From the NCBI GenBank assembly GCA_027036355.1, contig JALVQZ010000165.1, positions 1-34,028 on the forward strand: a DNA stretch of 34,028 nt, in the 5' to 3' direction. Below are positions 5,128 through 19,167 of this stretch, piece after piece. A program made the translations under genes and the position numbers. Position 1 is the stretch's first letter. The number at the start of each line of letters is the position of its first letter. A model generated the notes under the pieces. That model did no database searches. It was given only the letters and a program-made list of their open reading frames with translations, and had not been told where the DNA came from. The DNA comes from Acidimicrobiia bacterium (GTDB lineage Bacteria > Actinomycetota > Acidimicrobiia > Spongiisociales > UBA5794).

Positions 5128-5131
<4 letters not shown>
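4709..5131 (+). CDS. Rrf2 family transcriptional regulator, probable Fe-S sensor (NsrR-like)
   Basis: 140 residues from ATG 4709, the usual Rrf2 length; a longer open frame to 4580 adds only low-complexity residues and lacks a ribosome site. The N-terminal winged helix (MRLEVTKKTDLALQAMKCLG..., with ISYLPQIMNPLVRAGWVES as recognition and wing region and GRNGGY) is followed by cysteines 90, 97 and 103 (C-x6-C-x5-C), placed like the Fe-S ligands of NsrR and IscR; NsrR proteins use C-x5-C-x5-C. NsrR-type members sense NO, others iron-sulphur status or redox. Its TGA overlaps the nosZ ATG by four bases, so it is co-transcribed with nosZ and most likely controls the nos operon. The signal sensed is inferred, not shown. 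Confidence 0.88.
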
Positions 5132-7179
<2,048 letters not shown>

Positions 7180-13302: not shown

Positions 13303-15123
13303 CTACTCGACGGTGACCGACTTCGCCAGGTTCCTCGGCTGATCGATGTCGTGACCCCGCAGCCGGGCGACATGGTACGCGAGGAGCTGGAGCGGAACGA
13401 CGGCGGTGACCGGAGCGAGCAGATCCTCGCCCTCGGGGATCCGGAGGACGACGTCGGCGAACTTCCCGATCTCGGCGTCCGTGTCGTAGGCGACGGCGAT
13501 CACCCGCGCACCTCGCGCCTTGACCTCTTGGACCGCAGACAGCGTCTTGTCGTACACGTCGCGCTGGGTGATCACCACGATGACCGGCACCCCCTCGGTC
13601 ACCAACGCCAGCGTGCCGTGCTTGAGCTCGCCGGCCGGCATCGCCTCGGAATGCAGGTAGGAGATCTCCTTCAGCTTCAACGATCCCTCCATGGCGACGG
13701 CGTAGTCGAGGCCGCGCCCGATGAAGTAGACGTCGTCGGCGTCCACCATCGACTCGGCCGCCGCCATCACGTCCTTCTCGCTCCGCAGGACCTCTTCGAC
13801 CATCTCCGGCAAGCGGCGAAGGCCGGCGGTGACCCGCCGGGCGACCTCCTCGTCGAGGACACCCCTCGCCCGGCCGAGGCGCAGCGCCAGCAGGTACTGG
13901 CCGATGAGCATCGCCAAGTAGGCCTTCGTCGACGCCACCGAGATCTCCGGACCGGCGCGGGTGTACACGATGTCGTCGGCGTCCCGGCTCAGGGTGCTCC
14001 CGACGACGTTCGTGAGAGCCAGCACGCGAGCCCCCAACTCGCCGGCCAGGCGGGCAGCGGCCAAGGTGTCGGCGGTCTCCCCCGACTGCGAGATCGCCAC
14101 CGCCAGGTCCCCCGGCGCGACGAGCGGATCGCCGTACCGCATCTCGTGCGCGTACTCGACTCGGGTGGGGATCCGCAACGTTCGGCGGAACACCTCGGCA
14201 CCGACGAGACCGGCGTGGTACGCCGTCCCGCAGGCGGTGATCCACAGCGTCCCGATCCCACGGGCGAAGTCGTCGTCGAACGCCGCGTCCTCGAGGACCA
14301 CCCGATCGTCCTCGAGCCGCCCGGCGATGGTCTCGGAGACGACGGACGGCTGCTCGTGGATCTCCTTCAGCATGAAGTGCTCGAACCCGGCCTTCTCGGC
14401 CTGTTCGGCGTCCCACGACACGTGGAAGACCTCCCGCTGCACCGGATCGCCCGAGATCGTCTCGATCGACGCCCCGTCGGCGTCGATGACCACCAGCTCG
14501 TCGTCCTCCACGATGAGGAAGTCGCGGGTCCGATGGAGGACGGCCGGGATGTCCGACGCCAGGTAGTTCTCTCCGTCGCCGAGGCCCACGACGAGGGGGC
14601 TGATCTTGCGGACGGCGACGATCGTGCCCGGCTCGGCCTTCGCCATCACCACCAGGGCGTACGCGCCCCTGGCGCGGGCGACGGCCTTGCGCACCGCGGC
14701 CACGAGATCGCCGTCGTACTCGGAGGCGACGAGATGGGCGAGGACCTCGGTGTCGGTGTCGGAGGCGAACGATGCTCCCGACGCTTGCAACTCCTCACGC
14801 AACGCGTAGAAGTTCTCGATGATGCCGTTGTGGACGACGACGAAATCGCCGGTCGGATCCGCGTGGGGATGAGCGTTGCGATCCGACGGCGGACCGTGGG
14901 TGGCCCAGCGGGTGTGCCCGATGCCGGCGTTGCCGGCGATCGGCTCCGAGTCGATCAGCGCGGCCAGGCGCTCGATCTTCCCTTCGGCCTTGCGGATCTC
15001 GATCCCCCCACCGGCCACGGCGATGCCCGCCGAGTCGTAGCCGCGGTACTCGAGCCGGGTGAGCCCGTCGAGCAGTATCGGGGCCGCCTGCTGGGGCCCA
15101 ACGTATCCCATGATCCCGCACAC
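13303..15123 (-). CDS. glmS: glutamine--fructose-6-phosphate aminotransferase (isomerizing)
   Basis: Makes glucosamine-6-phosphate from fructose-6-phosphate and glutamine, the first step of aminosugar synthesis for the cell wall. 606 residues. N-terminal Ntn glutaminase with catalytic Cys 2 after the start (VCGIMGYVG), RLEYRGYDSAGI and THGPPSDRNAHPH; C-terminal paired SIS domains with GTAYHAGLVGAEVF, SQSGETADTLAA and the terminal KSVTVE. GTG 15123 is chosen so that Cys follows directly, as needed for the N-terminal nucleophile; GGGAGGT precedes it. Upstream lies a glmS ribozyme, so the expected control is cleavage of this mRNA when its product accumulates. Confidence 0.98.
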   Translation of the reverse strand: MCGIMGYVGPQQAAPILLDGLTRLEYRGYDSAGIAVAGGGIEIRKAEGKIERLAALIDSEPIAGNAGIGHTRWATHGPPSDRNAHPHADPTGDFVVVHNGIIENFYALREELQASGASFASDTDTEVLAHLVASEYDGDLVAAVRKAVARARGAYALVVMAKAEPGTIVAVRKISPLVVGLGDGENYLASDIPAVLHRTRDFLIVEDDELVVIDADGASIETISGDPVQREVFHVSWDAEQAEKAGFEHFMLKEIHEQPSVVSETIAGRLEDDRVVLEDAAFDDDFARGIGTLWITACGTAYHAGLVGAEVFRRTLRIPTRVEYAHEMRYGDPLVAPGDLAVAISQSGETADTLAAARLAGELGARVLALTNVVGSTLSRDADDIVYTRAGPEISVASTKAYLAMLIGQYLLALRLGRARGVLDEEVARRVTAGLRRLPEMVEEVLRSEKDVMAAAESMVDADDVYFIGRGLDYAVAMEGSLKLKEISYLHSEAMPAGELKHGTLALVTEGVPVIVVITQRDVYDKTLSAVQEVKARGARVIAVAYDTDAEIGKFADVVLRIPEGEDLLAPVTAVVPLQLLAYHVARLRGHDIDQPRNLAKSVTVE

Positions 15124-15178
15124 GGCGCGACCTCCCATCGTCGAGGGGGTCGGAGGAGCGGGAACGGGATGGGTCCCG

Positions 15179-15323
15179 TTTCACACCGATGCGGCCTCTG
15201 TGCCGGGATCGCTCCCGGTTTTGCTCCGCATCGTCACGACCGTGAACGGCCGAGAGGGCATCCGCCGACGGTTCGATACTCCCTCTTCCTCGTCTCCTCA
15301 CCCTGGGGATGAGGGCAGGCGCT
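15179..15323 (-). ncRNA. glmS self-cleaving ribozyme (glucosamine-6-phosphate activated)
   Basis: In the leader of glmS. Predicted cleavage A15323|G15322 in GGA|GCGCC. P1: eight pairs, 15314-15307 with 15303-15296, loop CCA. Conserved core: GACGAGG (15294-15288), TATCGA (15278-15273) and TCGGCGGATG (15268-15259). P2: AGAGGG (15286-15281) with CCCTCT (15258-15253). P2.2: CGCC (15321-15318) with GGCG (15266-15263). P3: TTCAC (15246-15242) with GTGAA (15184-15180). P4: GATGCGG (15232-15226) with CCGCATC (15194-15188), capped by a six-pair stem and GCGA tetraloop (15218-15203). Order, spacing and core match the known class; in Bacillus the ribozyme cuts the glmS mRNA when glucosamine-6-phosphate binds. 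A further hairpin (15180-15163) follows before the GTG. Confidence 0.92.
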
Positions 15324-15390
15324 CCAGAGACAGCTCGTCCGACCCGGCTTCGGTTGTGACCCCAGGTTACCCGAGGATCCGTCGAAGGCC

Positions 15391-16713
15391 TCAGTGCCGT
15401 CCGATCCGGCGACCGACGACCTCCGCGATCGAATCGGCGACCGTCGCCGCCTGGTCCTCGGACGGTGCTTCGACCATGACCCGGACGAGCGGTTCGGTGC
15501 CCGACGCCCGCACGAGGACGCGGCCGTGATCGCCCAGCGTCCGCTCCCCCTCGGCGATCGCCTCGGCGATCTCGACGTCCTCTCCGAGACGATCCTTGTC
15601 GGCAACCTCCACGTTGCGGAGGACCTGCGGATAGACCGTCATGACCTTGCGCAGCTCCCGCAGCTCCCGGCCGGTGGCCGCCATGACCTCCATGAGACGC
15701 AGCGCCGTGCGGAGCCCGTCGCCCGTCGTACGATCCTCGAGTAGCACGTGTCCCGACTGCTCACCGCCGATCACCGCTCTCGTCCGTCGCATCGCCTCCA
15801 GGACGTAGCGGTCGCCCACCGCGGTCTGGATCACCTCGACGCCGATCGCCCGCATCGCCTCGTGGAACCCGAGGTTGGACATCACCGTGACGACGACCGT
15901 GTCGCTCTGCAGCCGTCCCTGTTCGTGCAGCCAGTTGGCGAAGATCGCCATCAACACGTCCCCGTCGACGACCTCGCCGTCCTCGTCGACGGCGATCAGT
16001 CGATCCGCATCGCCGTCGAAGGCGAGCCCCACCCTCCCCCGCGCCACGGCGGCGACCGCCTCGGGCCGGGTGGCACCGCAGCCGTCGTTGATGTTCATCC
16101 CGTCGGGTTCGTCGTTGATGATCTCGACGGTCGCTCCGACCCTGTCGAACAGCAACGGGGCAGCCCGGAAGGCGGCACCGTTGGCGCAGTCGACGACGAA
16201 CTCCAGCCCTCGCATGGAGTACCGGACCGTCGCCGCGAGCCGGTCCACGTAGCGTTCGGTGGCGTCCGCCATCACGGTCTGGATCCCCACCGCCGAACCG
16301 ACGGGGACACCGGTGCGGCGGTCACTGCGATAGGCCGCCTCGATGGCGGCCTCCTCCTCGTCGGACAGCTTCGTCCCGTTCCGTCCGAAGAACTTGATCC
16401 CGTTGTCCTCGGCGGGATTGTGCGACGCGCTGACCATGACGCCGAAACCGGCGTCGATGTCGCGACCGAGCCGCGAGACGGCGCCGACGGGCACGATACC
16501 GAGATCGACGACGTCGACACCGACCGAGTTGAAGCCGGCCATCAAGGCCGCGGCGAGCATCGGGGACGACCGTCGAGGGTCGCGGCCGATCGCCACCGGG
16601 AGATCGGTCATCGCGCCGGCCGCCCTGGCCAGCCCGACCGCGAGGTCGACGGTCAGTTCCGAGTTGGCCCGGCCTCGCACGCCGTCGGTGCCGAACAACG
16701 TCCGTTCGGTCAT
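15391..16713 (-). CDS. glmM: phosphoglucosamine mutase
   Basis: Interconverts glucosamine-6-phosphate and glucosamine-1-phosphate, feeding UDP-GlcNAc for peptidoglycan. 440 residues. N-terminal LFGTDGVRG, the phosphoserine loop VSASHNPAEDNGIKFFG (active Ser about residue 97), the metal loop AFDGDADRLIAVDEDG, the sugar loop GEQSGH and the C-terminal phosphate site VRASGTEPLVRVMVEA are all present. ATG 16713 is preceded by GGAAGGGG. It follows rpsI by 64 bases; the 267-base gap after its stop is filled by the glmS ribozyme leader. Confidence 0.98.
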   Translation of the reverse strand: MTERTLFGTDGVRGRANSELTVDLAVGLARAAGAMTDLPVAIGRDPRRSSPMLAAALMAGFNSVGVDVVDLGIVPVGAVSRLGRDIDAGFGVMVSASHNPAEDNGIKFFGRNGTKLSDEEEAAIEAAYRSDRRTGVPVGSAVGIQTVMADATERYVDRLAATVRYSMRGLEFVVDCANGAAFRAAPLLFDRVGATVEIINDEPDGMNINDGCGATRPEAVAAVARGRVGLAFDGDADRLIAVDEDGEVVDGDVLMAIFANWLHEQGRLQSDTVVVTVMSNLGFHEAMRAIGVEVIQTAVGDRYVLEAMRRTRAVIGGEQSGHVLLEDRTTGDGLRTALRLMEVMAATGRELRELRKVMTVYPQVLRNVEVADKDRLGEDVEIAEAIAEGERTLGDHGRVLVRASGTEPLVRVMVEAPSEDQAATVADSIAEVVGRRIGRH

Positions 16714-17745: not shown

Positions 17746-19167
17746 ATGGCCCGAACACCACCCCATGGAGCCACGCTCACGATCCACGGCGCCGCCGGAG
17801 AGGTCACCGGCTCGTGCCATCTCCTGGAAGCCAACGGCGTCCGCATCCTCGTCGACTGTGGGATGTTCCAAGGCAGCGACGACCTCGAACACGACAACGA
17901 GCAACCCTTCGGCTTCGACCCGGCAGCCATCGACGTGCTCGTGCTCACCCACGCCCACCTCGACCACTGCGGCCGGATCCCCCTGCTGGTCAAACGCGGG
18001 TTCCGAGGCGAGATCGTGGCCACCTCGGCCACCAGGGAGCTCGCCGAGCTGGTCCTCCTCGACGCCGCCAAGCTCCAGGAGGAAGACGCCGAACGCGACG
18101 CCCGCAAAGCCCGCAGGGAGGGCAGGGAGCCGAAGGAGCCGCTCTACACCACCGCGGACGCCGCCTGGGCGATGGGGTTCTTCGGCCGCAACGCCACCTA
18201 CGGTGAGGCGATCCGGATCGGCCCCGGCATCGACGCCACGTTCCTCGACGCCGGCCACATCCTCGGCTCCGCCACCGTCGTGGTCGACGTCACCACCGGC
18301 GACGAGGTGCGCAGGATCACCTTCTCGGGGGACATCGGCAACCACGGGCGGCCGATCATGCGGGACCCCACCCCACCTCCGCCGTCGGACTACGTCGTCA
18401 TGGAGTCGACCTACGGGGACCGCCGCCACAAGTCGGTGCAGGCGTCGGTGACCGAGCTGTACGAGGCGATCGACGACACGCTCCGGCGCGGCGGCAACGT
18501 CATCATCCCCACCTTCGCCCTCGAACGGGCCCAGGAGGTCCTCTACTTCATCCGCGAGGCGTGCGAGGACGGGCGACTCCCCCGCGCGATGCCCGTCTAC
18601 CTCGACTCCCCCATGGCGATCAGCGCCACCGAGATCTACCTCCACCACCCCGAAGCGGTCGATCCCGATACGTACCGTCAACTTCAGAAAGGCGACGACC
18701 CGTTCCGGCCACCGGGCCTCCAGATGACCCGCGACGTCCAAGCCTCGATGCAGATCAACCACGTGCACGGCGGTGCCGTGATCCTGGCGGGCTCCGGCAT
18801 GGCGACCGGCGGGCGCGTGAAGCACCACCTCAAGCACAACCTGTGGCGGGAGGAATGCAGCGTCGTGTTCGTCGGCTATGCCGCCAAGGGGACGCCGGCG
18901 AGGGCGATCATCGACGGAGCCGACGAGATCCGGCTGTTCGGCGAGGAGATCAAGGTTCGGGCTCGCATCTACACCATCAACGGCTTCTCCGCGCACGCCG
19001 ACCACGACGAGCTCATCGAATGGGTCTCCCATGCCGGCACACCGCGTGAGGTGTTCCTCGTCCACGGGGAACGTCACCGGGGCATGGACGCCCTCGCCCA
19101 CGATCTGCGCGCCAAGGGCTACCGGGTCGGCGAACCCAAGGCCCACCATCCCTACCGACTGACGTAG
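17746..19167 (+). CDS. MBL-fold beta-CASP ribonuclease (YSH1/CPSF73-like)
   Basis: 473 residues. Metallo-beta-lactamase motifs: THAHLDHCG (His 69, His 71, Asp 73, His 74), DAGHILGS (His 171), SGDIGNHG (Asp 196); then the beta-CASP insert with [36 protein letters not shown]; then [14 protein letters not shown] and LVHGERH near the C-terminus. This is the zinc-dependent RNase class related to archaeal and eukaryotic CPSF73, found in many bacteria; it is shorter than and distinct from RNase J, which is not in the window. Likely a cytosolic RNA-processing or decay enzyme. It is divergent from rplM and converges on truA with a 3-base gap, an insertion between two genes that are usually adjacent. 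Confidence 0.92.

Follow-up and report, generated by a model that had tools for sequence, protein, structure and literature searches.

In ribozymes of the glmS family, glucosamine-6-phosphate (GlcN6P) acts as a cofactor, and cleavage leaves a 2′,3′-cyclic phosphate on the upstream piece and a 5′-hydroxyl on the downstream one. The element analyzed here resembles the glmS ribozyme of Bacillus subtilis in the order of its motifs, in its helices, including P3.1, and in its position in the glmS leader; the B. subtilis ribozyme also sits downstream of glmM. It differs by its GC-rich helices, its short P1 and its host, an uncultured member of the Actinomycetota rather than the Bacillota, and its cleavage is predicted. 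Ribozymes of other Actinomycetota and of Chloroflexota (families f76, f82, f66, f104 and others) belong to the same RNA family, yet most of them have A-U as the basal pair of P1, whereas it is C-G in the class studied here; moreover, other actinomycetotes carry a GlmS of the native type, while that of the present genome is of the Bacillota type. In B. subtilis, A40, G41, G42, C54 and G67 position or catalyse cleavage (PMC11602151), and RNase J1 degrades the 5′-hydroxyl glmS fragment (PMC3328962).

The whole stretch of DNA that we analyzed, hereafter the window, comprises 34,028 nt from an Acidimicrobiia bacterium. A first-pass annotation had proposed a glmS ribozyme upstream of glmS, and scanning with the RF00234 covariance model bears this out: cmscan returned a full-length match on the minus strand between glmM and glmS (window 15334-15178, model 1-167 of 167), whose 96.3 bits (E 1.9e-21) lie above the family's gathering score of 37 bits and which is the sole Rfam match in the whole window. 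The boundaries first given, 15179-15323, run from the cleaved A to 1 base short of the model end. The element scores 135.2 bits with a covariance model built in this analysis, the training set of which includes the window element itself. We are highly confident that it is a genuine glmS ribozyme, predicted to cut the glmS leader under GlcN6P control. It is an ordinary-looking glmS ribozyme, a known kind of RNA in a less studied part of the family's range; what this analysis adds is how widely it occurs and that the histories of ribozyme and enzyme appear to be uncoupled. The features of the locus, in window coordinates, are as follows.

13303-15123, minus strand: glmS, glutamine--fructose-6-phosphate transaminase (isomerizing); TIGR01135, 778 bits against a cut-off of 418; Bacillota-type in phylogeny
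15178-15334, minus strand: glmS ribozyme, RF00234 (cmscan, full length)
15180-15246, minus strand: P3.1 pseudoknot; loop-tail complementarity covarying across 82 elements
15188-15232, minus strand: P4 (15232-15226 with 15194-15188) and P4.1 with a GCGA tetraloop (15218-15203); cmscan alignment, covariation
15237-15252, minus strand: P3 hairpin (15252-15247 with 15242-15237); cmscan alignment, covariation
15253-15286, minus strand: P2, enclosing the TATCGA and TCGGCGGATG core segments; six pairs, covariation
15288-15294, minus strand: GACGAGG core, invariant in the alignment; matches B. subtilis A40, G41 and the active-site G42 by presumed motif numbering
15295-15315, minus strand: P1 hairpin; cmscan alignment, covariation (85 elements)
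15322-15323, minus strand: predicted cleavage site A15323/G15322; AGCGCC motif against the Rfam cleavage context
15391-16713, minus strand: glmM, phosphoglucosamine mutase; TIGR01455, 498 bits against a cut-off of 447.6; groups with glmM of the whole order

The ribozyme lies within the 267-nt gap between glmM and glmS, with the glmM stop codon 67 nt before the cleaved A and 54 nt between the model end (15178) and the glmS start. For the latter we rejected the ATG at 15138 in favor of the GTG at 15123, directly before the catalytic Cys codon (MCGI N terminus) and preceded by a Shine-Dalgarno sequence, GGGAGG, at about 15136-15131. The minus-strand gene order is rpsM, rpoA, truA, rplM, rpsI, glmM, ribozyme, glmS and an NAD(P)HX epimerase/dehydratase gene; this order looks typical of an actinobacterial genome, and glmM and glmS are probably cotranscribed. 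On the opposite strand between truA and rplM, near the ribozyme operon, window 17746-19167 (+) encodes a Beta-CASP metallo-beta-lactamase ribonuclease (Pfam Beta-Casp and RMMBL; partial matches to aCPSF1 and type VII Cas14 models, below their cut-offs), a different protein from the RNase J encoded on contig C197. The nitrous-oxide reductase NosZ, of the Sec-dependent kind, is encoded at window 5128-7179 (+; 807 bits), close to cytochrome c and ABC transporter genes.

The core motifs had been reported in the order of the family, and all of them were located and intact on the minus strand: A15323/GCGCC (GCGCC at 15322-15318), GACGAGG (15294-15288), TATCGA (15278-15273) and TCGGCGGATG (15268-15259). 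In an alignment of 30 elements, the A and GCGC at the cleavage site are invariant, and the conserved core (A/GCGCC, GACGAGG, AUCGA and CGGCGG), complete in the window, is invariant or nearly so. Assigned by motif, the window's GACGAGG, TATCGA and TCGGCGGATG segments would correspond to those holding A40, G41, G42, C54 and G67 in B. subtilis. The two stems described at the outset are also present, P1 with seven pairs and one C.A mismatch at its base (15315-15308 with 15302-15295) and P2 with six perfect standard pairs (AGAGGG 15286-15281 with CCCTCT 15258-15253), and the P3-P4 domain was located as P3, P4 and P4.1. To this earlier list we add the P3.1 pseudoknot, in which the loop UUCAC (15246-15242) can pair with GUGAA (15184-15180) in the 3′ tail; the last C of this loop and the closing pair of P3 may be in competition. 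The sequences of the P2.1/P2.2 core double pseudoknot are present and nearly invariant across elements, so that covariation says little about them; the L024 element carries a matching double change in this core (GCGCU with CAGCGG).

That covariation supports the structure, as proposed on first inspection, was confirmed on 85 distinct elements, in which 88.2% of the cells are paired and 30 of the 36 pairs show changes in both partners. The covariation score was 0.589, compared with 0.178 for shuffled alignments and at most 0.145 for slid registers, a figure that leans towards the assumed structure because the alignment was made with the model built here and fitted to that structure. Over the same elements, the outer helix of P1 is 99.3% paired, with changes on both sides in four of five pairs, and P2 is 96% paired, with such changes in all six. 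The pairing of P3.1 is conserved across relatives through changes on both sides, its longest loop-tail helix averaging 5.35 pairs in 82 elements against 4.51 with shuffled partners (best of 1000 shuffles, 4.87). The P2a pairing of our own model R1 (helix 4, 51% paired) was out of register and was dropped from the evidence.

An actinobacterial host had been suggested from the DNA, and named genomes agree: the same family contains Actinomycetota metagenome-assembled genomes such as "Actinomycetota bacterium M_MetaBat.3" (L021/G420 = G024), and the same class holds "Actinobacteria bacterium ATB1" (L039/G434 = G115). When related genomes were searched for the element, RF00234 scored over its cut-off in 90 of 99 relatives, in 125 of 394 genomes of the class, in 68 of the 396 Actinomycetota genomes sampled and in 70 of 251 sampled from the Chloroflexota; no glmS ribozyme was found at named loci of Streptomyces, Rhodococcus, Mycobacterium, Corynebacterium and similar genera. 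At 83 of the 85 measured loci of Actinomycetota and Bacillota, the ribozyme ends 22-311 nt before glmS. Two of the families with the element are probably Actinomarina-like (f12, genome ~1.1 Mb) and Rubrobacter-like (f76). The literature searched, on glmS with Rubrobacter or Acidimicrobiia and on riboswitches in Acidimicrobiia, yielded nothing relevant, the McCown 2011/2012 distribution surveys lying outside its scope.

Absence of a match among the relatives mostly does not mean true loss. Genomes of the order without an RF00234 match mostly have no canonical glmS match either (G036 has a truncated glmS only), the element of G083 is cut by a contig end, and G103, with a weak score under strict filters, turned out to carry a full match of 62.9 bits. 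G096 is a real absence, a loss within the order: its glmS is present (L219, C1:1316354-1318171), and the glmM-glmS gap gave no RF00234 match up to E 10. The ribozyme is therefore not indispensable. Second matches also occur, one below threshold in a genome that has a full one (G005:C72:18760-18922, 26.3 bits), and two per genome in the Chloroflexota sample (G949 and G980).

The enzyme encoded behind the ribozyme is not of one kind in the order. Identity to the GlmS of the window is 62-96% in families f1, f4, f6, f7 and f8, versus 48-50% in f2, f3 and f5, and families f1-f8, with both kinds of GlmS, all have ribozymes. Phylogenetic analysis of 81 GlmS proteins groups the window type, together with f12, with all Bacillota rows (100/100), most of which have the ribozyme, and all other actinomycetote GlmS lie on the opposite side, f2, f3 and f5 being of the native actinobacterial type. 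Forcing the GlmS of the order into one clade costs 148 log units and is rejected (p-AU 5.7e-5), while a single clade is compatible with the glmM data (p 0.43), in which the order and f12 stand apart from 34 other rows (100/99). Vertical descent of the whole glmS unit is thereby ruled out. An assembly or binning artefact is likewise excluded, since many genomes, drawn from five families, share this element and this GlmS type. In the RpoB tree, the order plus f12 (100/100) and the order itself (98/95) are recovered, and a single clade of window-type families is borderline (p 0.041); because f2, f3 and f5 are nested among the window-type families, this tree implies about two changes of GlmS type. 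In one reading, a Bacillota-type glmS was gained by the ancestor of the order and f12, and f2, f3 and f5 went back to the native type. We infer the direction and number of these swaps from the trees.

The ribozymes themselves are arranged otherwise. In a tree of 81 elements, the 46 elements of the class, of both GlmS types and including f11 and f12, form one group (99/95) in which the types intermix; for instance, an f3 element (native type) lies among f6 elements (window type). Since both kinds of GlmS sit behind ribozymes that form a single class-wide group, it is the RNA that appears to have stayed and the enzyme that appears to have been exchanged. Accordingly, we lean towards a ribozyme that was resident before the families of this lineage diverged and was kept as a Bacillota-type coding sequence took the place of the glmS behind it. 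By the same leaning, the ribozyme held its position between glmM and glmS throughout the order, and the enzyme was exchanged between the actinobacterial and Bacillota types once or more, the two having separate histories. Comparison of the sequences thus suggests, with moderate confidence, that the ribozyme follows the organism rather than the enzyme.

The main competing explanation, which we regard as possible although considerably less probable, is that transfer into the ancestor of the window-type families delivered a Bacillota-type glmS along with the ribozyme. The two adjoin and would move together, and the enzyme nests with Bacillota GlmS that mostly bear ribozymes themselves. The ribozyme tree rejects such a joint arrival weakly: placing the window-type elements with those of Bacillota gave p 0.02, or 0.047 with f12 included, and 0.05-0.07 with three Bacillota rows, in a tree of 143 columns with many weak inner forks and with the compared groups named after the trees had been seen. 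A GC-rich composition could also draw elements together in this tree, although f76, despite being GC-rich, remains separate, and f12, whose elements are AT-rich, joins the class. Against joint arrival stands the 46-row group in which families of both enzyme types intermix, and both types share C-G as the basal P1 pair, as well as ACAGAG, which replaces ACAAAG in most of the class; these two traits are uncommon outside it. Furthermore, sister families with a native GlmS, as well as other actinomycetote families, have the ribozyme too. The first-pass annotation had left wider distribution, transfer and deep ancestry side by side: the counts establish wider distribution, deep ancestry within the class is favored for the RNA, and transfer is assigned to the glmS coding sequence instead of the RNA.

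It is very improbable that the element is a decayed remnant incapable of cleavage, or one that binds GlcN6P without cutting. The basal C.A mismatch in the window's P1 would fit such decay, but none of the catalytic-core motifs is disrupted, and the element has been kept with covariation across the order. Chance likeness of a GC-rich sequence to the glmS family can be dismissed given the E-value of 1.9e-21, the position before glmS, the 90 of 99 relatives with a match and covariation far above that of shuffles and slid registers.

With a resident, functional ribozyme as the preferred reading, a mechanism can be proposed by analogy with B. subtilis, from which the ligand, the cleavage and the decay route in the window RNA are extrapolated. 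GlcN6P, the product of GlmS, would bind the ribozyme as a catalytic cofactor, and the RNA would then cleave its own chain at A15323/G15322. The glmS mRNA beyond the cut would be left with a 5′-hydroxyl and then be degraded, probably by RNase J, so that the supply of this cell-wall sugar enzyme would drop when GlcN6P is plentiful; the glmM coding region on the upstream piece would survive cleavage. The nuclease that had been postulated for the 5′-hydroxyl fragment has a candidate, an RNase J homologue encoded in the same genome (G000:C197, 477.6 bits).

Two other arrangements were seen around glmS. In family f87 (L213:1001-2689 and L214:1001-2686, from G476 and G606), a ribozyme lies between glmM and glnA, a type I glutamine synthetase gene (TIGR00653, 524-533 bits), and glmS comes directly behind glnA in the gene order. 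Judged from their sequences, these elements (~33% GC, in genomes of 1.0-1.4 Mb) are of uncertain activity, having the core AGCGCA and extra hairpins near P2; one ribozyme may control glnA and glmS jointly, tying glutamine supply to GlcN6P. Families f9, f10, f14, f17, f18 and f27 of the same class (L181, L183, L197 and others) have neither the ribozyme nor a canonical GlmS and encode a GlmS-like protein of 1120-1200 aa, below the TIGR01135 cut-off, with an MCGI start, a long insert before the remaining glutaminase domain, a SIS domain and a C-terminal extension. At L181, the gene for this oversized protein lies directly after glmM.

Taken together, these results give a catalytic riboswitch a firm place among deep-branching Actinomycetota, most of them uncultured, and in many Chloroflexota, which makes the view of a mainly Firmicutes device too narrow and renders an old origin in Terrabacteria testable. 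Within the order, genomes can be paired that share the ribozyme but have non-orthologous GlmS enzymes, a natural setting in which selection on the control RNA can be tested independently of the enzyme. GlcN6P mimics that trigger the ribozyme would be expected to affect these bacteria too.
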